Assembly: GCA_017431225.1 (NCBI GenBank)
Contig: JAFRLM010000020.1
Coordinates: 1-64,000 of the forward strand
Source: Erysipelotrichaceae bacterium
GTDB taxonomy: Bacteria; Bacillota_I; Bacilli_A; Erysipelotrichales; Erysipelotrichaceae
Length of the DNA stretch: 64,000 nt
Direction: 5' to 3'
The notes under the pieces were generated by a model that saw only the letters and a list, made by a program, of their open reading frames with translations, had not been told where the DNA came from and searched no databases. The position numbers and the translations under genes were made by a program. This document shows positions 39,478-56,947 of this stretch, piece after piece (within the stretch, counting starts at the first letter, position 1; every line of letters starts with the position of its first letter).

Positions 39478-42400
39478 TTATTTACCAGCTGTGTTCGGTA
39501 CGGGCGGTTTCGGAGGAGTCGGCGGTGACGGCGGAGTGTGGGAGTTCGTTACAGTGAATCCATCCTTCGCGTTTCCGCTGATCACAGTCGTGTAGGATTT
39601 GACTGTGTCTTCGGTAACGGTGTATTTGATCTCTTTTCCGCCTTCACAGACCGGAAGATCTTCCAGAGTTGCTGTCCACTTGTTTTCCTCGTTCAGTTCG
39701 AAGGTTTCGATCTCTTCGCCATTCGCAAGGACATGGACTGTGACAGAAGCCGGACGCAGTTTATCCTTATCATTGACATCATTCCAGACTTTCTTGACCG
39801 TCAGGTCTGTGGTCTCCGGAGTGTACTGGTTGGTGAAAGTCGTGATGAGTCCGGATACTTCTTTGCTGAGGAGCTTGTAGCCTTCCGGCATAGAGCCTTC
39901 TTCCCAGCTATAAGTGATCTCCTGACCGTCCTTATACTTCGGAAGACCTTCAACTGTTGCTTCCCAGTTCTTATCAGCAGTCAGAGAAACGGACTGGCCG
40001 TTGGAAAGAGTCATCGTGATTGAACCCGGACGTTTTCCATCCTGATCGTCGGCATCATCCCAGACTTTTTTAACAGTAACGGCTGTTGTTTCCGGAGTAT
40101 AGCTGTTGACGATCGTTGTGCTGGTTCCTGAAGAATTGACATTGTAGGCAACCGTATATTCACCGAGCTTGCCATCCTGTTCGCCGACTTCCTTGACAAA
40201 GTAAGTGATCGGAGAGCCATCTTTATTAGCAGCAAGATCTTTCCAGGTGTATTCCAGGCTGCCGTCGATCGGCAGAGTGATCGGATCTCCAACTGTCTCC
40301 TCAACAGTTTCAGTCGTGGCTTCTGCTCTTAATGCAGGAGCTTCTGCTGCTTCAGCAGTTTCGTTTATTGCTTCTGCCTTTAAGACAGGAGCCTCGTTTG
40401 CTTCTTCAGCTGCAGGCGCAGTTTCTTCAACAACTGCGGTTTCAGTGTTTTCCGCTGCTGCTTCCGGAGCTGTTTCTGTTTCTGCTGCTTCGGCCTGAGT
40501 TTCTTCAACAGCTTCTGCAGGAGCTGCTTCCTGTGCTTCGCTTTCAGCTGCTTCTTCTGTCTGAAGAGTTTCTGTTTCAGATGTTTCCGCTGCTTCAGCT
40601 GTCTCTGCAGGAACTTCCTGTTTCTCTTCAACAGCAGCTTCTTCAGTCGTGGCTGCCGGAGCGGCTTCCTTCTCTGCTTCAGTCAGATCTGTTGTTGCAG
40701 CGCTTTCCACAGCCTTTGTGTATCTCATCATCAGCTGGACACTGATGGTTTCCGGACGCTTGCCGTCCTGATCATCCGCATCGTCCCAGGACTTGACGAC
40801 CTGATAAGTCGTTGTTGCGGTTGCGTGCGTATTGGTGATAGTACCGTTATTGTTTGCCGGAGAGCCGGATACTTCGTATCCTTCCGGTACGGTGTCTTCG
40901 GTCACTGTATAGGTAATCTCATTTCCGTTCGCGTTTTTCGGCAGACCGGACCACTTATAGGTCCATGTATTTCCGTTCTTCGTGATCTCCGGAGTCGGAG
41001 CAGTCGTTCCATCCGGAAGTCCGTTCAAGGTGAGAGTGAGTTCCTCAGGACGGATACCATCCTGGTTATCGGCATCATTCCATGCCTTAGTGACAGTGAC
41101 ATCTGTCGTTTCCGGAGTATAACTGTTGGTGATCGTTCCGTTATTGTTTGCCGGAGATCCTGTCATCGTATAATCGCTCGGAACAGTGTTTTCCGATACG
41201 GTGTAAGTGATCTCTGCACCTGTGCTGTCATATTTCGGTAATCCTGTCCAGGTATAGGTCCAGGTATTGCCGTCTGTGCTCTTTGTGATCTCCGGAGTCG
41301 GAGCAGTCGTGCCTTCCGGAAGATTATTCACCGTCAGTTCAAGAGTTTCCGGACGTTTTCCGTCCTGGTTGCTTGCGTCATCCCAGACTTTTGTAACGGT
41401 GATGTCCTTGACTGCATATTCATTGGTATAAGTGACTTCATAGACGGTGTTCGTCGATTCGATCGTCCCGGTGGAGGTACGGCCGCCTACGAACTTATCC
41501 GTCGTTCCTTCTCCGTCAATTACTTTGATCTTGGCTGTCTTGAAAATGAAGCCGGTCGGGAGATCACCTTCTGTGATCTCGTACGTCGAATCTGTCGGCA
41601 GGTTGTTAAGACGGACGGAATGACCATCCTTCATATTGACCGTGATCGTTGAACCGCTTGGTGCGTAGTACCAGCCATTCGCTCCGTCTTCGGCTGTTGC
41701 GCCGGAAACGCCTTCTGTGACCGGATTTCCGTCTTTATCCCGAACGGAGATCCAGACCCAGTAATCAGAGTCATGGCCATCATCTCCTGCAGGCGGAGCA
41801 TCCGGAGCCAGAGAGTTTGTAACTTTCAGCGTGAACGGGAAAGTTGCGTCTTCCGGAACATTTTCACCTTCGACGACTTTCTTGATATTCAGGCTGGAAC
41901 GACGATAGTTGGTTGCAGTAAGGGAATTTGCGGATTCATCCGCATAGTACTGATCGCCATTGATCGTATAAACAGTCGCTCCGCTGGGAGCAGTGTGTTT
42001 TTCATCGACTTTTATCAGCACCGTCAGCGTTCCGTCGATCATCATTGGGTGTACAGTTGGGACATCGAGTTCCCAGTGATAGGTCAGATCGTCCGGTTCG
42101 CTGAAAGTGAAGTCATGGCCTTCGGATCCTTTCAGAACTTCCATTTCACCATCCGCATTGGTGCGCATGATGCCGATCGAAACAAAGACACTGCCCTTCC
42201 AGCCATTATCACTGTTAAGGGAAACCGAATATACCGGCTCAGTATCATCATCTCTGAGAACACCAAGCGTGACCGATTTTGCTGACTGACTGTCGATCTC
42301 ATTTTCCCATTCCTTCGAAACAGCGAGCTGTTTAACAGCATCTGTCTGTACCGGATCAGGATTCGTATAATTCACGCTTCCGCCGTCATAACCTTCACGG

Positions 42401-43941
42401 GTATCATCCCAGGTCAGTGTGGCAGTTGTATTCGTTGACAGATTGCCGTTCTTATCAATGTACTGCTGAATGTTGGAATCCAGTTCACCCCAGGCGCCTT
42501 GGTTGCTTTCATCAACATACGGATCGTTCTTGATGTCAGCTACGATATCCAGAGTTGTCTGGCTCGGGTAGACATCAAAGGTAACTGAATAGGTAACACC
42601 GTCGAGAAGTGTGCCGACACTGCTCAGATTCCAGTTTACAGAGCCGTTCTCTAATTTGGCTTGAGGCGGATCGTAATTATATAAGGCATTCTTCCCTGTC
42701 CATTCGTATTTAAGATTTCCGCCGGAAACACTTCCGTTCACGGTAACACTGTTGGAACCCCATCTGACAGTAGAGGTGCCGTCACCGTTATCTGTTACGG
42801 TGTAGGTCTCCATCTCGCCGCTTGTCAGGTTGACGCGCTGAAACTGATTGTTGCTGTCGAGCGGAATGCTGATCCAATACTGGTATTCCTCGATCACTTC
42901 GAGAAGCTCGGAGATTTCACCAGTCGATGTTTCGACCTCGTTGGTCGTACCGTCTGCGATGCCGACGTTCGTAACACCAAGGGCATTAACGATCGTCTGG
43001 AAGATGCTTTCGATCGCCTCGGTCAAGGCGGATGTATCAGAAGCATTAAAATAGTTTTCTGTAGCTACGGTCTGTCCATCCATGCCCGGACGGTCAGAAC
43101 CGTTATTTGCGTAATAGATCAGATCATCAAGCAGATCTGCTTCTCTACCGTATGCGTAAATACCGAAAAGGGTCGTATCTGTACGGCTCTCAATCGTAAG
43201 TGCTTCATTGCGGGCTTCCTGATAGAACGGCCGGAAATCCGTCCACTGATGGTTTCCTGCCGGGTTGATCGGTCCATTATGGCCAGTACCGTTCGCACCG
43301 GACGCAGTGCAGGCACCGTCGGTTACGAGAATGACGAATGTAGGATCGCTGTCAGCAGAGTTAAGATATGAAATTGCCTGCTGCAGGCCGCTTTCCCAGT
43401 TCGTGCCGTTACCGTTATAGTTCAGATTTACGGTTCCGTCTACTCCGTCATCAAAGAAGCGGTTCGCACCGTTATTGTTAGAGGTAAGATTGCTTGTCCA
43501 TCCCTGACGTTGGGCTCCGGTCACCGCAAAAGTAACGATCGCGACCTGGATATTGTTCGGATTGGAGGAACTCTGATATCCCCTCAGGTTCTCAATGAAA
43601 TCATGCACGATATCTTCGGCATAATCCGCCCGGTTGCGGTTCGGGTTCGTGGTGACGTTGTTGCTGGTCATACTGGACGAGACGTCATATACGATCAGTA
43701 CATTAACATTTGATGCGGTTTCGACTTCTGTATCCGCATCGCCGGTGACGGACAGCTCGATCTTGTAAGTGCCGTCATTACTGCCATCCTCCGTTTTGTT
43801 CGGCGTGGCAGTCTTGTCGTGTTCCGGTGGAATAACTTCCGCCTTAACACGGGTCGCCAAAGGTGAGATCCCCAGCGAATTGCTTACCAACATGGACAGG
43901 ACAAACGCCATTGTCAGCAAGACTTTTCCAATTCTCCTCAT
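39478..43941 (-). CDS. Large surface protein: VWA domain plus multiple Cna-B repeats
   Basis: A 1487-residue secreted adhesin- or pilin-like protein. It has a signal peptide (about 1-34) and a von Willebrand A domain (about 75-330) with MIDAS motif DVSSS and LVTDGAC. A middle region ends in a SpaA/FctA-like segment (SLNIKKVVEGENVPEDATFPFTL). Then come at least six Cna-B modules with VTKVWDD, YTVSE and ITNSYTPE, the Lys, Glu and Asn pattern of intramolecular isopeptide bonds. Within one Cna-B module an Ala/Glu-rich insert of about 145 residues (about 1072-1217) splits the domain. The protein ends PPSPPTPPKPPVPNTAGK with no hydrophobic helix or basic tail after the LPxTG-like motif. It is a probable sortase-linked or otherwise retained adhesin. 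Confidence 0.9.
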   Translation of the reverse strand: MRRIGKVLLTMAFVLSMLVSNSLGISPLATRVKAEVIPPEHDKTATPNKTEDGSNDGTYKIELSVTGDADTEVETASNVNVLIVYDVSSSMTSNNVTTNPNRNRADYAEDIVHDFIENLRGYQSSSNPNNIQVAIVTFAVTGAQRQGWTSNLTSNNNGANRFFDDGVDGTVNLNYNGNGTNWESGLQQAISYLNSADSDPTFVILVTDGACTASGANGTGHNGPINPAGNHQWTDFRPFYQEARNEALTIESRTDTTLFGIYAYGREADLLDDLIYYANNGSDRPGMDGQTVATENYFNASDTSALTEAIESIFQTIVNALGVTNVGIADGTTNEVETSTGEISELLEVIEEYQYWISIPLDSNNQFQRVNLTSGEMETYTVTDNGDGTSTVRWGSNSVTVNGSVSGGNLKYEWTGKNALYNYDPPQAKLENGSVNWNLSSVGTLLDGVTYSVTFDVYPSQTTLDIVADIKNDPYVDESNQGAWGELDSNIQQYIDKNGNLSTNTTATLTWDDTREGYDGGSVNYTNPDPVQTDAVKQLAVSKEWENEIDSQSAKSVTLGVLRDDDTEPVYSVSLNSDNGWKGSVFVSIGIMRTNADGEMEVLKGSEGHDFTFSEPDDLTYHWELDVPTVHPMMIDGTLTVLIKVDEKHTAPSGATVYTINGDQYYADESANSLTATNYRRSSLNIKKVVEGENVPEDATFPFTLKVTNSLAPDAPPAGDDGHDSDYWVWISVRDKDGNPVTEGVSGATAEDGANGWYYAPSGSTITVNMKDGHSVRLNNLPTDSTYEITEGDLPTGFIFKTAKIKVIDGEGTTDKFVGGRTSTGTIESTNTVYEVTYTNEYAVKDITVTKVWDDASNQDGKRPETLELTVNNLPEGTTAPTPEITKSTDGNTWTYTWTGLPKYDSTGAEITYTVSENTVPSDYTMTGSPANNNGTITNSYTPETTDVTVTKAWNDADNQDGIRPEELTLTLNGLPDGTTAPTPEITKNGNTWTYKWSGLPKNANGNEITYTVTEDTVPEGYEVSGSPANNNGTITNTHATATTTYQVVKSWDDADDQDGKRPETISVQLMMRYTKAVESAATTDLTEAEKEAAPAATTEEAAVEEKQEVPAETAEAAETSETETLQTEEAAESEAQEAAPAEAVEETQAEAAETETAPEAAAENTETAVVEETAPAAEEANEAPVLKAEAINETAEAAEAPALRAEATTETVEETVGDPITLPIDGSLEYTWKDLAANKDGSPITYFVKEVGEQDGKLGEYTVAYNVNSSGTSTTIVNSYTPETTAVTVKKVWDDADDQDGKRPGSITMTLSNGQSVSLTADKNWEATVEGLPKYKDGQEITYSWEEGSMPEGYKLLSKEVSGLITTFTNQYTPETTDLTVKKVWNDVNDKDKLRPASVTVHVLANGEEIETFELNEENKWTATLEDLPVCEGGKEIKYTVTEDTVKSYTTVISGNAKDGFTVTNSHTPPSPPTPPKPPVPNTAGK
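40290..40728 (-). repeat. Low-complexity Ala/Glu/Thr coding insert inside a Cna-B module
   Basis: A tract dominated by GCT/GCA/GAA-type codons, giving strings such as AETAEAAETSETE. It lies between the strand ETISVQLMMRYT and the strand ITLPIDGSLEYTWKDL, which in other Cna-B domains are joined by a short loop. A related Glu/Ala-rich tract is at the N-terminus of the second Cna-B protein. Confidence 0.75.
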
Positions 43942-44609: not shown

Positions 44610-46946
44610 TTATTTACCTGCAGTATTCGGTACAGGCGGTTTCGGCGAAGTCGGCGGAGTCGGCGGAGTGTGGGAGTTCGTTACAGTGAATCCGTCCTTC
44701 GCGCTGCCGCTGATCGCTGTCGTATAGGAAGCGACTGTGTCTTCGGTAACGGTGTATTTGATCTCCTTGCCGTCTTTCAGGACAGGCTGTCCTTCTAATG
44801 TAGCCGTCCACTTGTTTTCCTCGCTCAGTTCAAAGGATTCGACTTCTTTGCCGTCGGCGAGGATATGAACGGTGACTTTTGCCGGACGCAGTTTATCCTT
44901 ATTGTTGACATCGTTCCAGACTTTCTTGACGGTGATGTCAATGGTCTTCGGAGTGTACTGATTCGTGATCGTTGTGATGAGACCTGAGACTTCCTGAGAG
45001 AGAAGCTTATAGCCTTCCGGCATACTGTCTTCTTTCCAGGTGTAGGTGATCTCTTTCCCGTTTTCGTATTTGGGAAGGCCTTCCACAACGGCTGTCCACT
45101 GGTTGCTTTCGCTCAAAGTAACTTTATCGCCATTGGAGAGAGTAACATTTAATGTCTGCGGACGCATGCCGTCCTTATTGTCGGAATCTTCCCATACCTT
45201 GACGATCGTCAGATCGATCGTTTCAGGAGTGTGGGTATTTTTGATCGTTCCGCCGTTTTCTACCGCTGCCGTCGGACTCTTTTCATATCCATCCGGTACA
45301 GTTTCCTCTCTTACGGTATAAACGATCGGTTCGCCGCCTGCGTATACCGGCACATTGCTCCAGGTATATGTCCAGGTATTGCCGTCTTCACTCTTTGTGA
45401 TCGTCGGATTCGGAGCTGTCACTCCCTCCGGAAGACCATTCAGAGTTAATGTCAGTTCATCCGGGCGTTTGCCGTCCTGGTTATTGGCGTCATCCCATTC
45501 CTTAGTGACACTGACTTCTGTTTTTGCCGGTGCATGTGTATTGGTGATCGTTGCACCGTTTCCAACGGCAGCATCCGGGCTCTTGGTATAACCTCTCGGG
45601 ACTTCGTCTTCAGATACTGTATAAACGATCTCTTCCCCGTTCAGTGTCTTGGGAAGACCTGCCCAGGTATAGGTCCAGAAATCTCCCTCTTTCTTGATCT
45701 CCGGAGCAGGAGCGGTCGTTCCTTCCGGGAGACCATTCAGAGTCAGCTCAAGACTATCCGGACGGATGCCGTCCTGGTCGCTGCTGTCAGCCCAGGACTT
45801 GGTGACGGTAACGGTTGCTGTTTCAGGCTTGTTGGTGATGCTGCCGGCATTCTCTTCCGGTGTGCTTCTTACATATGTTCCTCTTGCCCAGAACGACCAG
45901 GAAGGATGAGAGTCGAATTTGATCTTGCCGGGGTTGCCGGAAGTCATTGTAAACCCGCCTTCAGCATGATGACCGAAGCCGGTAAGATATGTTGTGCCCT
46001 CCCAATCCTCATGCGGAAACTGCGGATGTTCTCTGACAAGGGCAAGTAGGATCTTCTGCTCGATCACGCTGATCTCTTCGGGAGTCCAGATATACAGCTG
46101 ATTGCCTTTTTTAGCGGCAATGAAAGACTTCTCTTTCGATTCTGTATATACTTCAAATTCGGTAACGCTATTTGGCTGGATCCATACCCAGTCCTCTTCA
46201 CCGTCAAGCGTTGTCATATTGACTGCCGGATCTTTATGTTTTTCCGCGACTTCTGTGTAATTAGGAACGGTTACTTCCGCGACCGCGAAATTATAAACAT
46301 GATACTTCCCATCATCGCCAATATAAAAGGCCGGTTCCTGATCATCACTGTCCGTCAGTCTGAATTCGTGTTTCCATTCATTGGCGGCAGTGACTGTAGC
46401 GGTGTCAAACAGATCGCTCTCTGTATAAGAATCACCTTTATAGCGATACAGCTTTACCGTAATGGAATCCGGGCGAAGACGAAGACTATCATTGCTGTCG
46501 TCCCATACTTTTGTAAAAGGAATGATGATCGTTGACGGATCGTAAACATCAACTCCATCTCCTTCTGCTCTGATAGTGATTTCGCCATCTTCGCCTTCCG
46601 GATCCGCTGCTAAAAGAACAGGAGCATTCAGTTTATCCGCAGCTGCGGGATTCTCCTGCACTGCTTCTTCCTTATCCGCAGCGACCTTTTCTTCAGGAAC
46701 TTCTGCATCTTCGCCTTCAGTACCTTCAGCAGCGATTGTCGGCTGTTCTGCCTCTGCTTCAGCTGCTTCAGCGCTTCCGCCATCTTCATTTTCTTCATTC
46801 TGATTCTGATCATCCAGTATCACTGTCTGCTCTCCATCGTCCGCAGCTTTCGCAACATTTGTGAATGGCGAGATGCCGACACTGTTGCTTACCAGCATGA
46901 ATAGAACGAACGACAGGATCATCAGAATTTTTTTGATTCGATTCAT
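44610..46946 (-). CDS. Surface protein with Cna-B repeats, paralogue of the large adhesin
   Basis: A 778-residue secreted protein. The signal peptide (MNRIKKILMILSFVLFMLVSNSVG) nearly repeats that of the larger paralogue. An acidic Ala/Glu-rich segment (about 35-110) and a Cna-B-like domain starting TKVWDDSNDSLRLRP follow. A unique region contains WVWIQPNSVTEFEVYTESKEKSF and a segment with YLTGFGHHAEGGFTM. Five tandem Cna-B modules complete the protein. The last two modules and the tail PKPPVPNTAGK are nearly identical to those of the neighbour, including at DNA level. There is no VWA domain and no membrane helix after VPNTAGK. GGGGGG lies before the ATG at 46946; the open frame extends 21 codons upstream without support. 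Confidence 0.88.
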   Translation of the reverse strand: MNRIKKILMILSFVLFMLVSNSVGISPFTNVAKAADDGEQTVILDDQNQNEENEDGGSAEAAEAEAEQPTIAAEGTEGEDAEVPEEKVAADKEEAVQENPAAADKLNAPVLLAADPEGEDGEITIRAEGDGVDVYDPSTIIIPFTKVWDDSNDSLRLRPDSITVKLYRYKGDSYTESDLFDTATVTAANEWKHEFRLTDSDDQEPAFYIGDDGKYHVYNFAVAEVTVPNYTEVAEKHKDPAVNMTTLDGEEDWVWIQPNSVTEFEVYTESKEKSFIAAKKGNQLYIWTPEEISVIEQKILLALVREHPQFPHEDWEGTTYLTGFGHHAEGGFTMTSGNPGKIKFDSHPSWSFWARGTYVRSTPEENAGSITNKPETATVTVTKSWADSSDQDGIRPDSLELTLNGLPEGTTAPAPEIKKEGDFWTYTWAGLPKTLNGEEIVYTVSEDEVPRGYTKSPDAAVGNGATITNTHAPAKTEVSVTKEWDDANNQDGKRPDELTLTLNGLPEGVTAPNPTITKSEDGNTWTYTWSNVPVYAGGEPIVYTVREETVPDGYEKSPTAAVENGGTIKNTHTPETIDLTIVKVWEDSDNKDGMRPQTLNVTLSNGDKVTLSESNQWTAVVEGLPKYENGKEITYTWKEDSMPEGYKLLSQEVSGLITTITNQYTPKTIDITVKKVWNDVNNKDKLRPAKVTVHILADGKEVESFELSEENKWTATLEGQPVLKDGKEIKYTVTEDTVASYTTAISGSAKDGFTVTNSHTPPTPPTSPKPPVPNTAGK

Positions 46947-47431
46947 GTTGAACCCCCCTGCGCATACAAGCGCACATGCTTTTTGTACAACGTAAAAACA
47001 AAAAGACACTACTTCATTTCTAGGCTACCACGCAGAATCCGCAAAGAATTAGACGCATCTACCCCTTATTTCCAAATCCTTTTTCAGCGTCCTTACGATT
47101 CGACGAAACTGATCAGTCTTGGCCGAAATTATATAGTTCTTTCAGAATGATCCCACAGCAAAAGATCCGGCAGACCGGAAGTCTCCGGCTTACACAAAAC
47201 AAAAGCCCGTCTTCAAAAACACGCAGAATGACGAACACAGGTCCGGGTTTTGCAGAAGATCGCTGACCATCTCAGTGAACAGTCTTCGATAAGGAACATT
47301 TTGTTCATATAACATTTATGTGATAAATTCCTTCATCAGCGGTCTTTTTCTTTTCAGCCCCTCTTCTGTATAATAACGTTGCGTTTTTAAAGAAAGAGGA
47401 GCCGGTTTGCGCCGGCATGAGGGAATTATTT
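46947..47431. promoter_or_regulatory. Divergent regulatory region between Cna-B gene and buk
   Basis: About 485 bases with no gene I can support. For buk: TATAAT at 47369-47374, then an AGGAGCCGG-TTTGC-GCCGGC hairpin just before the Shine-Dalgarno sequence. For the Cna-B gene: a weak TTGCGG (16 bases) TAGAAA pair around 47020-47050 on the minus strand, and a GCGCTTGTATGCGC hairpin next to its G-rich Shine-Dalgarno sequence. The middle (47100-47340) shows nothing recognisable. Confidence 0.4.
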
Positions 47432-50886: not shown

Positions 50887-52074
50887 ATGAACAGAGCGAT
50901 CCGAAACCTTTTGATCCTGCTTCTTATGGCAACCCTTCTTTCGGGGTGCGCGGGAGAGAAAAAGGAAGAGACTCCCGAAACGCCCGCAGTTCCGGAGATC
51001 CATGAACTTGCCACACAGCACGAAACCGAATTCGGCGGAGTCTACCTCGTGATCACGATCGATGACTTCAATAAACTGGGATTCGAATACGGCGACAGTG
51101 TGAACGTCGAATTCTCCAATGGCTACAAGCTTGAGGACATCCCCTACTATAACGGCTACTATGTCGATGCCGGGAAACCGCTGCTGATCGCCTATCCCGG
51201 ATACGATTACATCAAGGCCGCGATCAATTACGGCGAAGACCTCTGGGAGGAAGCCGAACTGAAGGCGACCAATGTAAAGACTCTCTGGATGACTGCCGGA
51301 CTGGATGAGCATTCCAAAGCTTCTGTTACTCTGAATGAAGCTGGAAAATACCGTGCCATTCAGGAAGCGCGGGACATCCATTATTATGACGAGCGGGAGA
51401 AATATCCCAGCGATATCGTCTTTGCCAATTTCCGCGCTATTGAGATGGGAAGCATCGCCGACGGACGTCTTTACCGTTCCGCCTCGCCCTGCGACAACCA
51501 GCATAAACGCGCTCCCTACGTCAATGACCTCATGCAGGAATACGGCGTGAATGCCGTCCTCGATCTCTCGGATAACGAATCGAAGATCCGGGGTTATCTG
51601 CAGCAGCCGGATTTCGCTTCCGCCTACTGGAAAGAGCTTTACGATCAGGGAAACGTCCTGCCGATCGCTTTGAATATGAATTATCTTTCCGATGACTTCG
51701 CGGCGAAGATCGCGCAGGGCTTCATCGACCTCAGCGAAAAGGAAGGACCTTATCTCATCCACTGCACCGAAGGCAAGGACCGCACAGGTTTTGTCTGCAT
51801 GCTGGTGGAAGCGTTATGCGGCGCAAGCTATCAGGAGATCGCCGACGATTATATGCTGACCTATGATAATTACTATGAGATCCGCAAGAATAACCAGGCA
51901 GATAAATACCAGACGATCCTCGAAAGCAATCTTGACGCGATGCTGAAGTTCATCGTCAATGATGATTCCGTTGATTTCAAAACAGCAGATCTCACACCAT
52001 ATGCGCGCGCCTATCTTCTGAACGCCGGCATGAGCGAGGAGCAGATCGATTCCTTCATCTCCCGTCTGCAGTAA
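50887..52074 (+). CDS. Tyrosine-phosphatase-like lipoprotein
   Basis: A 395-residue lipoprotein (signal with LLSGC, lipid Cys about 21). After an acidic linker comes a beta-rich domain of about 90 residues (YLVITIDDFNKLGFEYGDSVNVEFSNGY). A PtpB-like protein-tyrosine/lipid phosphatase domain follows, with GRLYRSASP, AVLDLSDNESK and the P-loop HCTEGKDRTG (Cys-x5-Arg). The early domain resembles a SAM-hydroxide-adenosyltransferase-like barrel by strand pattern, with low certainty. It acts outside the membrane, so its substrate is probably not a cytosolic phosphoprotein. GGAGAAAGAAT precedes the ATG. Confidence 0.85.
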   Translation: MNRAIRNLLILLLMATLLSGCAGEKKEETPETPAVPEIHELATQHETEFGGVYLVITIDDFNKLGFEYGDSVNVEFSNGYKLEDIPYYNGYYVDAGKPLLIAYPGYDYIKAAINYGEDLWEEAELKATNVKTLWMTAGLDEHSKASVTLNEAGKYRAIQEARDIHYYDEREKYPSDIVFANFRAIEMGSIADGRLYRSASPCDNQHKRAPYVNDLMQEYGVNAVLDLSDNESKIRGYLQQPDFASAYWKELYDQGNVLPIALNMNYLSDDFAAKIAQGFIDLSEKEGPYLIHCTEGKDRTGFVCMLVEALCGASYQEIADDYMLTYDNYYEIRKNNQADKYQTILESNLDAMLKFIVNDDSVDFKTADLTPYARAYLLNAGMSEEQIDSFISRLQ

Positions 52075-54503: not shown

Positions 54504-54800
54504 TTATACATCCATAGCGGCTGTTTTTACTCTTTCTTTTAAGAAGGAACGGAACCGTTTTGATCCGAAAACGATGAACCGGTATTCTCTGTTGTCCTTC
54601 AGCCGGATCGAGAATACAGGAAACAGAAATCTTCGCTGAAAACTGATTTCTGAAATATCCGCGTATCTCATCTCGATACGCTTCAGTTCCGGAGAAACGG
54701 TCAGCTTGTTCGTGTGATACGTCATTTTCTCCTCATCGGTGCTGATGCCACCTCCGAGGACTCCTTCGCGGATGATGCTTGCGACAAAATACGGGTTCAT
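54504..54800 (-). CDS. Small PH-like domain protein
   Basis: A 98-residue protein with a strand pattern (MTYHTNKLTVSPELKRIEMRYADISEISFQRRFLFPVFSIRLKDNREYRFIVFG...) typical of bacterial PH/GRAM-like domains. It ends in an alpha helix with basic residues. It lies 12 bases after the prephenate-dehydratase-like gene and probably shares its transcript. GGAGATC precedes the ATG. No enzymatic motif. Confidence 0.6.
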   Translation of the reverse strand: MNPYFVASIIREGVLGGGISTDEEKMTYHTNKLTVSPELKRIEMRYADISEISFQRRFLFPVFSIRLKDNREYRFIVFGSKRFRSFLKERVKTAAMDV

Positions 54801-54812
54801 AGAGATCTCCTT

Positions 54813-55703
54813 TTATTTGACGGAAAAGCTCCCCAGATAGCGGAATTCGAGGGAAGACTGCTGACACAGTTTCTGATAATCCCCATAGGAACTCCCGGCG
54901 CATTCGATCACATAGACATAGTGGCCAAGTTCTGTTTTCAAAGGACGGTCATGGATCGCGACCAGCACCATCTTCAGCTCTTCCATCTTTTTCATCAAAG
55001 CAGGCAGTTCCTCCGCCGGTCCGGAAGCCAGGAAAGCCAGCCGGTCCGCGGACTCCGTAGCTGCCTGTTCGGTGGAAAGAACATAGAAACGAGTCTTATT
55101 GAAATCGCTGTTCTGGATCCCCGGAGCAAGGACCTTCAGCCCGTAAACTTCCGCGCTGCCCGCAGAGGCGATCGCCGCGCAGGAAGGATCGTTTCCCTCC
55201 GCTACGAGTCTGGCGCCTTCCGCTGTGCTTGAGACAACGACTGTTTCCGCTTCCGGGAGATTCGTCTTCAGCCATTCCGCGCCCTGGGTCAGGCCCTGCG
55301 GATGTGAATAGACTGTCCTGATCTGACTGAGCTCCGCGCCCGGAAGCGAAAGCAGATTCTGCGTGATCGGCAGCTCCACTTCCCCGACGACAGATAAAGA
55401 AGGATGCGCGATCAGGATATCGACATAATCGATCACCGCTCCGCCAATGGTATTCTCCTGCGGAATGACCGCGTAGCGGCTCTCTCCATTCAGCAGTGCC
55501 TCTACAGCATCCGCGACAGTCTCATACGGCTGCAGGGAAGCCTGCTCATCAAAAAACGTTTTACACGCTTCTTCGGTATATGTGCCGCGCGGTCCCAGAT
55601 AACTGACTTTGGCGGTCTGATCGATCACCACCGGGATCGTCTCTTCCGCAGCGGAACAGCCCGCCAGCAGAAAAACAAGGATCATCAATACTAATTTCTT
55701 CAT
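54813..55703 (-). CDS. Prephenate dehydratase-like lipoprotein with ACT domain
   Basis: A 296-residue protein with an N-terminal lipoprotein signal (MKKLVLMILVFLLAGC, lipid Cys16), then a complete PheA-type dehydratase: VSYLGPRGTYTEEA, YAVIPQENTIGGAVIDYVDIL, YSHPQGLTQGAEWL, and NKTRFYVLS with the catalytic Thr-Arg-Phe. A C-terminal ACT domain follows (EELKMVLVAIHDRPLKTELGHYVYVIECAG). Normal prephenate dehydratases are cytosolic and make phenylpyruvate for phenylalanine synthesis; an exported lipid-anchored form is unusual. It may be a real enzyme outside the cell, or an amino-acid sensor. It starts seven bases after a TATAAT. Confidence 0.85.
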   Translation of the reverse strand: MKKLVLMILVFLLAGCSAAEETIPVVIDQTAKVSYLGPRGTYTEEACKTFFDEQASLQPYETVADAVEALLNGESRYAVIPQENTIGGAVIDYVDILIAHPSLSVVGEVELPITQNLLSLPGAELSQIRTVYSHPQGLTQGAEWLKTNLPEAETVVVSSTAEGARLVAEGNDPSCAAIASAGSAEVYGLKVLAPGIQNSDFNKTRFYVLSTEQAATESADRLAFLASGPAEELPALMKKMEELKMVLVAIHDRPLKTELGHYVYVIECAGSSYGDYQKLCQQSSLEFRYLGSFSVK

Positions 55704-55749: not shown

Positions 55750-56892
55750 CTAATGGTGCAGCTCGAAGAGATCCCGCGGGAAAAGAGACAGGGATTCCGC
55801 GCCGTTCTCGGTGACAAGGATCATGTCTTCGACGCGCATATACATCTCTCCGGGGAACATCATCTTCGGTTCGGAACAGAATACCATTCCCGGCAGCATG
55901 ACTTCGTCTTCGTAATCCGCCAGTATCGGGAATTCATGGCAGTCAATACCGATCTGATGGCCGTTCATGCCGTGCTCCTGCTTTCGGAAGTATTTTCCGT
56001 AGCCGTGCGCTTCGACGTAATCGGTGATCATTTTGTACGTCTCGTTCACATTCGTCTTATAGGGAACGATGCTGCGGATCATGTTGACCTGCGCGTCCTG
56101 AAGCACTTTATAGCCTTCGCGGATATATTCCGGCGCTTCGCCCCAGTACAGCGTTCTGCCCCAGTCGGAGCAGTATCCGTCCTTAACGAATCCAATATCG
56201 AACGCGATCCCGGTATTCGGCAGAAGACGGTTCGTGCGCGGGAAGTCATAATTCTGCTCGGCGGTGAATGTGCCTCTTGTCTTGAAGCCGATCGTCGGCG
56301 GGAAGGAAAAGTCATCCATGCCGTGTTCCATACCATAGCGCATCAGCATGTCTTCCGCTTCCGCCATCGTCATTCCTTCACGGAAGTTTTCCGCGACATA
56401 CATGATCGCCTGATCGGTAAAGCGCGCCATATAGCGCAGCTGCTCGATCTCCCTGGCGTCTTTGATCTTGCGCAGATCTTTTAAAAGCAGTTCCGCATCG
56501 ACTGCTTCCGCTTCGGGAACGATATCCTTAACAGCTCCTGAGAGCCAGCCGGCACAGTCGCTTCCGATACCGATCCTCTTTCCTCTGACAAAGAAAGACA
56601 GCGTATCCTCCATCTGATCGAAGTAGGACAGGATGACTTTGCACCCCGGAAAATCATCCTTCAGCCTCGGGATGCATACGATCCTGAAGTCTCCCTCCGC
56701 AGATAACCAGAGGACTGCTTCCGGAAGGATATGGGACGACTGGCGGCCGCCGATGTTGTTCATGCAGCTTCTCTGCCAGAAGTAGTTGGTACATTCGCTT
56801 ACATACTGAAGATTCGCGCCGGTCGCGTAGAGCACTCCGTCAAGGCCTGCGTTGCGGATCGTATTCAGTATTCTTGTTCTGCGTTCACTCAT
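55750..56892 (-). CDS. M24-family metallopeptidase (Xaa-Pro peptidase-like)
   Basis: A 380-residue pita-bread peptidase. A creatinase-like N-terminal domain (1 to about 135) precedes the M24 domain with the five metal ligands in order: AFDIGFVKDGYCSDWGR (two Asp), EHGMNGHQIG (His), VFCSEPKM (Glu) and RVEDMI (Glu). It is cytosolic and probably cleaves Xaa-Pro dipeptides or N-terminal residues before proline. GTGAGGATC precedes the ATG at 56892; a longer in-frame start upstream overlaps the Shine-Dalgarno sequence. It lies upstream of the dehydratase-like gene, which has its own promoter. Confidence 0.9.
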   Translation of the reverse strand: MSERRTRILNTIRNAGLDGVLYATGANLQYVSECTNYFWQRSCMNNIGGRQSSHILPEAVLWLSAEGDFRIVCIPRLKDDFPGCKVILSYFDQMEDTLSFFVRGKRIGIGSDCAGWLSGAVKDIVPEAEAVDAELLLKDLRKIKDAREIEQLRYMARFTDQAIMYVAENFREGMTMAEAEDMLMRYGMEHGMDDFSFPPTIGFKTRGTFTAEQNYDFPRTNRLLPNTGIAFDIGFVKDGYCSDWGRTLYWGEAPEYIREGYKVLQDAQVNMIRSIVPYKTNVNETYKMITDYVEAHGYGKYFRKQEHGMNGHQIGIDCHEFPILADYEDEVMLPGMVFCSEPKMMFPGEMYMRVEDMILVTENGAESLSLFPRDLFELHH

Positions 56893-56947
56893 AATCTGAT
56901 CCTCACTTCTTCCCTTCCGTAAAAACCCGGTCAGCATTCCTTCCATG

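Follow-up and report, generated by a model that had tools for sequence, protein, structure and literature searches.

The window, by which we mean the whole 64,000-nucleotide stretch analysed here, carries on its minus strand (54813–55703) a gene for a 296-residue prephenate dehydratase (PDT) with an ACT domain, identified by Pfam, NCBIfam, an AF2 model and structural superposition; its ORF starts MKKLVLMILVFLLAGC. The product begins with a predicted lipoprotein signal peptide (residues 1–15, MKKLVLMILVFLLAG; 55659–55703), followed by the lipid-acceptor Cys16 (55656–55658), a linker that differs among homologues (residues 17–31; 55611–55655), the PDT catalytic domain (PF00800, residues 33–213; 55065–55607) and the ACT domain (residues 214–296; 54816–55064). 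Both flanking genes lie on the same strand. Upstream, an M24 metallopeptidase gene (55750–56946; PF00557, E 9.7e-38) ends 46 bases before the PDT ATG. Downstream, as the initial annotation had noted, a small gene (54504–54800) follows 12 bases after the PDT stop (54801–54812); its 98-residue product, which that annotation called ‘PH-like’, has no Pfam or NCBIfam family match. Scanning for promoters gave no sigma-70-like site near the PDT gene.

PF00800 matched with E 4.7e-59 and 199.7 bits, against a curated cut-off of 25.2, and was the sole Pfam domain, with no ACT call. PRK11898, the NCBIfam equivalog for the biosynthetic PDT, aligned to residues 31–295 with 217.5 bits, a near miss of its cut-off of 219. 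The AF2 model (mean pLDDT 88.7) found PDTs as its best structural matches, with 18–31% identity to solved PDTs in structural alignments, and superposed over residues 28–296 on the solved PDT–ACT structure 6vh5_D (Z 27.0, rmsd 2.2 Å, 260 residues aligned). Because this superposition and the PRK11898 alignment both take in the C-terminal residues, we regard the ACT domain as present. Judged by sequence and model, then, the window protein is a PheA-type PDT with a complete predicted PDT–ACT fold behind a lipoprotein signal, and the initial description of a PheA-type enzyme with a TRF motif and an ACT domain holds.

Among 315 genomes of the order, 27 close relatives were found, the window's own protein included, at E 1e-66 or better, clearly apart from the other PDTs of the order (E 7e-43 or worse). 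All 27 have a lipoprotein-like N-terminus in which Cys16 is invariant, while elsewhere the signal is freely variable, as is the linker. Wider relatives were sought by scanning GTDB species genomes, from which the best 80 were taken, and the pooled loci fell into an exported set (n = 99; at least 400 bits with the clade model) and a cytosolic set (n = 44; at most 200 bits), with none in between.

By an explicit rule, 95 of 99 exported-clade members have an export signal, as against 0/44 cytosolic PDTs, and 84/99 have a lipobox. Three of the four exceptions lie at contig ends (L141, L147 and L109) and the fourth (L151) reflects a limit of the rule; in L109 and L151 a lipobox can be seen by eye. 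Every member with an intact N-terminus therefore has an export signal, mostly a lipobox. In some members the lipobox is replaced by an SPase-I-type signal (L135, L142 and L161 of Spirochaetia, and L115 of Riflebacteria) or by a TM anchor (L113 and L127); such a switch of route with export retained is the outcome expected from selection for export. In the window protein the same rule-based approach recognizes an N-region, a hydrophobic stretch, a lipobox and Cys at +1 in MKKLVLMILVFLLAG followed by C16. Given the invariance of Cys16 among 27 homologues and the contrast of 95/99 with 0/44, this signal is not a chance resemblance, in agreement with the original reading of it, and the window protein is almost certainly exported.

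The catalytic residues are kept throughout the exported clade. E83, N84, H134, Q140, T204, R205 and F206 are 100% conserved in both the 99 exported and the 44 cytosolic proteins, and S133 is 100% conserved in the former and 97% in the latter. These residues belong to PQENT (residues 81–85; 55449–55463), which is 100% conserved in the exported set, to SHPQGLTQ (residues 133–140; 55284–55307), in which Q136 is likewise 100% conserved among exported members, and to the catalytic TRF (residues 204–206; 55086–55094), whose Thr to Ala exchange abolishes the activity of the fungal enzyme EqPdt (PMC11980547). Beside these motifs stand residues specific to the exported clade, Q82, G87, W144 and Y207, which may leave room for a shifted substrate.

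The regulatory site has fared differently. Cytosolic PDTs keep the GAL and ESRP motifs of the Phe site (G231 100%, L233 100%, E251 90%, S252 100%), whereas in exported PDTs residues 231–232 are variable and H251 (98%) and D252 (92%) replace the start of ESRP; the window protein has EEL at residues 231–233 (55005–55013) and HDRP at residues 251–254 (54942–54953). PDTs with an altered ESRP become insensitive to aromatic amino acids, according to PMC11980547, which cites Jimenez 2000. From the loss of both motifs we infer that canonical Phe inhibition has been lost in the exported clade, which counts against the earlier suggestion that the protein might serve as a phenylalanine sensor. Two residues of the ACT domain, H251 and C268 (81%), are conserved among exported PDTs and not among cytosolic ones; a new ligand or metal site there is conceivable.

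No second PDT was found in the window genome (G000, about 86% complete), a search that the initial annotation had proposed. Neither chorismate synthase nor AroB was found in the four genomes of the genus (G000–G003), one of which is rated 100% complete, so that an internal supply of prephenate is unlikely in this genus, and the exported PDT is correspondingly an improbable contributor to ordinary de novo Phe synthesis there. The initial reading of a surface-exposed PheA-type enzyme is supported to that extent. The other hosts do make chorismate, with chorismate synthase in 22/24 and 24/24 genomes of two sets, and usually they have a separate PDT as well (14/24 order genomes and 19/24 other host genomes), nearly always fused to a chorismate mutase-type domain in those retrieved.

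These findings bear on the possibility that the gene yields an ordinary cytosolic PheA from an internal start, the signal being unused. Two in-frame GTG codons downstream of the signal, GTG25 and GTG26, make such a start possible on paper, and the gene is the sole PDT found in its genome, so that one half of the case that the initial annotation held to be damaging, a sole pheA with a cytosolic product, does apply. The homologues argue for export in the other half: use of a downstream start would conflict with the whole clade, in which Cys16 is invariant (27 homologues) and the signal near-universal (95/99). Since the feedback motifs are also lost, searches of the genus found neither chorismate synthase nor AroB, and most other hosts have a separate PDT, we consider a cytosolic PheA highly improbable.

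CM_2 matches occur in 24 of 29 genomes; judged by the kind of ORF that holds them, small ORFs or the cytosolic fusion, an exported chorismate mutase partner appears unlikely; no CM_2 match was found in G000 or G002. The two other genomes of the genus have small chorismate mutase genes (G001:C31, L229; G003:C21, L226), though chorismate synthase and AroB were not found there; these genes are perhaps relics or perhaps have another use. Two genomes, G156 and G110, have chorismate synthase and no match to DHQ synthase (PF01761), perhaps indicating a partial or alternative shikimate route.

Within the genus the PDT gene is accessory, since G001, rated fully complete, lives without it and G003 has the downstream genes without PDT and its M24 gene elsewhere. 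Where present, it is under purifying selection: between the window genome and G002, dN is 0.012 and dS 0.188, a dN/dS of about 0.06. In a tree rooted by midpoint only, for which the program warned of long branches, the exported PDTs form one side with an SH-aLRT of 100, both against the order-wide cytosolic PDTs and against cytosolic PDTs encoded in the very Lachnospiraceae and Oscillospiraceae genomes that carry exported ones. Hosts of the exported clade belong to Erysipelotrichaceae, Lachnospiraceae, Oscillospiraceae, Spirochaetota and Riflebacteria, with the guts of ruminants as the main source, and the members from Erysipelotrichaceae and Spirochaetota are scattered inside it, a distribution that points to horizontal transfer among gut bacteria. 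It was found at a clade-level score in only 5/299 sampled genomes from the family of Oribacterium strain G315. Isolate or sample names indicate a ruminant origin for 53/80 best relatives, counting name series that we take to be ruminant. Among the phage and plasmid matches listed, only distant ones appeared (at most 36% identity; ordinary PDTs where annotated), and no viral contigs were found; carriage by phage or plasmid was rejected on these grounds.

Gene neighbourhoods offer no partner. The gene for the 98-residue protein occurs without PDT in the congeners G001 and G003 and is not common to other loci, and was rejected as such. When neighbours were clustered across 27 order loci and across 104 loci, sharing was confined to close relatives. 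Of 134 flanking genes scanned with Pfam, no more than four fell into any one family, with no ABC component, sensor kinase or transporter recurring, and the exported PDT is not linked to an aro operon. Elsewhere in the window, the minus strand encodes two large surface-type proteins of repetitive sequence, judged by eye to be Cna-B-like (39478–43941 and 44610–47009); both end in PPVPNTAGK followed by a stop, with no hydrophobic anchor continuing downstream. A plus-strand gene (50887–52074) encodes a lipoprotein with a Y_phosphatase3 match (PF13350, E 1e-20) and the motif HCTEGKDRTG; it may be a secreted phosphatase of PTP type.

In Lachnospiraceae the PDT domain also occurs at the C-terminus of other exported proteins, all behind export signals: a histidine phosphatase (His_Phos_2; L110, L131 and L164, with L138 similar), a glycoside hydrolase of family 3 (GH3; L148) and an alpha-acetolactate decarboxylase (L144). 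No exported-clade member was seen to carry a fused chorismate mutase. The decarboxylase fusion (L144:490–2616) joins in one lipoprotein two decarboxylating enzymes that act on unstable metabolites. A PAP2-type phosphatase gene adjoins the fusion genes of L131, L138 and L148, which represent two fusion architectures. In G326, the genome of the Treponema locus L126, a 636-residue protein (L283) has its PDT domain at residues 344–597 behind a long N-terminal part without family match.

The modular look of these fusions to unrelated enzymes, together with the resemblance of the PDT fold to type II periplasmic binding proteins, would suit a non-catalytic surface receptor, with an aromatic ligand bound by the PDT domain, which would then signal or tune its fused partners; this class includes the Phe sensor. 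Thr-Arg-Phe and Glu-Asn are invariant, though a protein that only binds would have no need to preserve them, both ACT Phe-site motifs are lost, and neither a sensor kinase nor a transporter is a recurrent neighbour; we think a receptor improbable. The same binding-protein-like fold, combined with lipid anchoring, might instead suggest that an ABC importer of prephenate, phenylpyruvate or Phe uses the protein as its solute-binding lipoprotein. That role is very doubtful: the domain is fused to enzymes, it has SPase-I-type and TM-anchored forms, its ACT domain is retained, and none of the 134 neighbour genes supplies a recurrent ABC component. Both readings are made less likely by the invariant catalytic triad and by the want of a recurrent transporter or sensor among those neighbours.

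That the exported PDT is a catalytic dehydratase acting on a prephenate-like substrate appears rather probable from its conserved residues. The fuller reading, to which we give about an even chance, is of a secreted, lipid-anchored dehydratase–decarboxylase of PheA fold with an extracellular substrate; it is favoured because export is clade-wide, the catalytic residues are kept, and the genus yielded neither chorismate synthase nor AroB. The surface enzyme would convert a cyclohexadienyl compound outside the cell, either prephenate, or arogenate from plants or neighbouring microbes, to phenylpyruvate (or Phe), irreversibly through loss of CO2 and without Phe feedback. The product would be taken up, with no dedicated neighbouring transporter in the scheme, and then either be converted to Phe by transamination or serve as a 2-oxo acid. 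Scavenging as the purpose of this activity is put forward tentatively. No record of an extracellular prephenate or arogenate pool in the gut was found in the open-access literature searched, and the fused partner domains are too mixed to indicate a single pathway, which counts against this explanation.

The main rival is that a PDT fold with a catalytic-type pocket acts on another extracellular substrate, such as a signal, an antibiotic or a plant aromatic. There is precedent in GqqA of Komagataeibacter europaeus, a PDT homologue described in PMC8192741 as an acyl-homoserine lactone (AHL) acylase that acts also on beta-lactams and complements E. coli pheA. Its structure (7am0_C) is close to the AF2 model (Z 26.7, rmsd 2.2, 256 residues aligned), clade-specific residues flank the catalytic motifs of the exported PDTs, and their gene is mobile and accessory. 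Nevertheless, the canonical PDT motifs are all 100% conserved, and GqqA is just 22% identical to the window protein and lies outside the exported clade, so that we judge a different substrate unlikely. GqqA has the PDT–ACT fold in common with the window protein, along with its second activity on extracellular signals; it binds Phe in the crystal (PMC8192741) and is not known to be a lipoprotein.

If a secreted dehydratase is the correct reading, part of the terminal phenylalanine route would be a between-cell activity in the rumen, even in members unable to make chorismate, and an exchange of prephenate or arogenate in the gut, should it occur, would give the rumen a further cross-feeding currency. 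No description of an exported, secreted or periplasmic PheA-type PDT in bacteria was found in the open-access literature searched. It is plausible, at somewhat less than even chances, that these proteins are an undescribed extracellular PheA-type family, spread horizontally in gut bacteria, recombined with secreted enzyme domains and processing exchanged prephenate or arogenate. Members include Oribacterium sp. P6A1, NK2B42 and KHPX15 and Lachnospiraceae MA2020, MC2017 and KH1T2; such named strains, if in culture, make the question testable.

The export of shikimate-pathway enzymes by some bacteria is an acknowledged puzzle (PMC10520331), and the earlier cases found involve either a dehydratase family of Proteobacteria that is unrelated to this one or an effector from a fungus. 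In the present clade the classical PheA fold itself is exported, in two or more named phyla; its Phe regulation appears to have been lost, and it occurs fused to secreted enzymes. Cytosolic PheA (PF00800; PRK11898) shares its fold and its motifs ENT/ENS, SH..Q and NxTRF, but the exported proteins form a separate clade with a signal in every intact member and with GAL and ESRP replaced. PheC, exported chorismate mutases and CM–CDT fusions are known extracytoplasmic enzymes of the shikimate branch, among which PheC and CM–CDT convert prephenate to phenylpyruvate; the authors describe this location as an enigma and remark on the lack of feedback control (PMC10520331). PheC and CDT nevertheless belong to a different family, probably derived from solute-binding proteins, occur in Proteobacteria and are found fused to an exported mutase (PMC10520331), whereas the present clade has a true PheA–ACT fold and is mostly lipid-anchored; with PDT as the sole Pfam match and PDTs as the best structural matches, identity with PheC or CM–CDT was ruled out. 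Another parallel is EqPdt of Erysiphe quercicola, the rubber-tree powdery mildew, a PheA-type PDT acting outside its producer, with a required TRF, an altered ESRP (NSRP) and no Phe inhibition (PMC11980547). EqPdt, however, is fungal, has no signal peptide, is predicted to be secreted unconventionally and is paired with a secreted chorismate mutase (PMC11980547).
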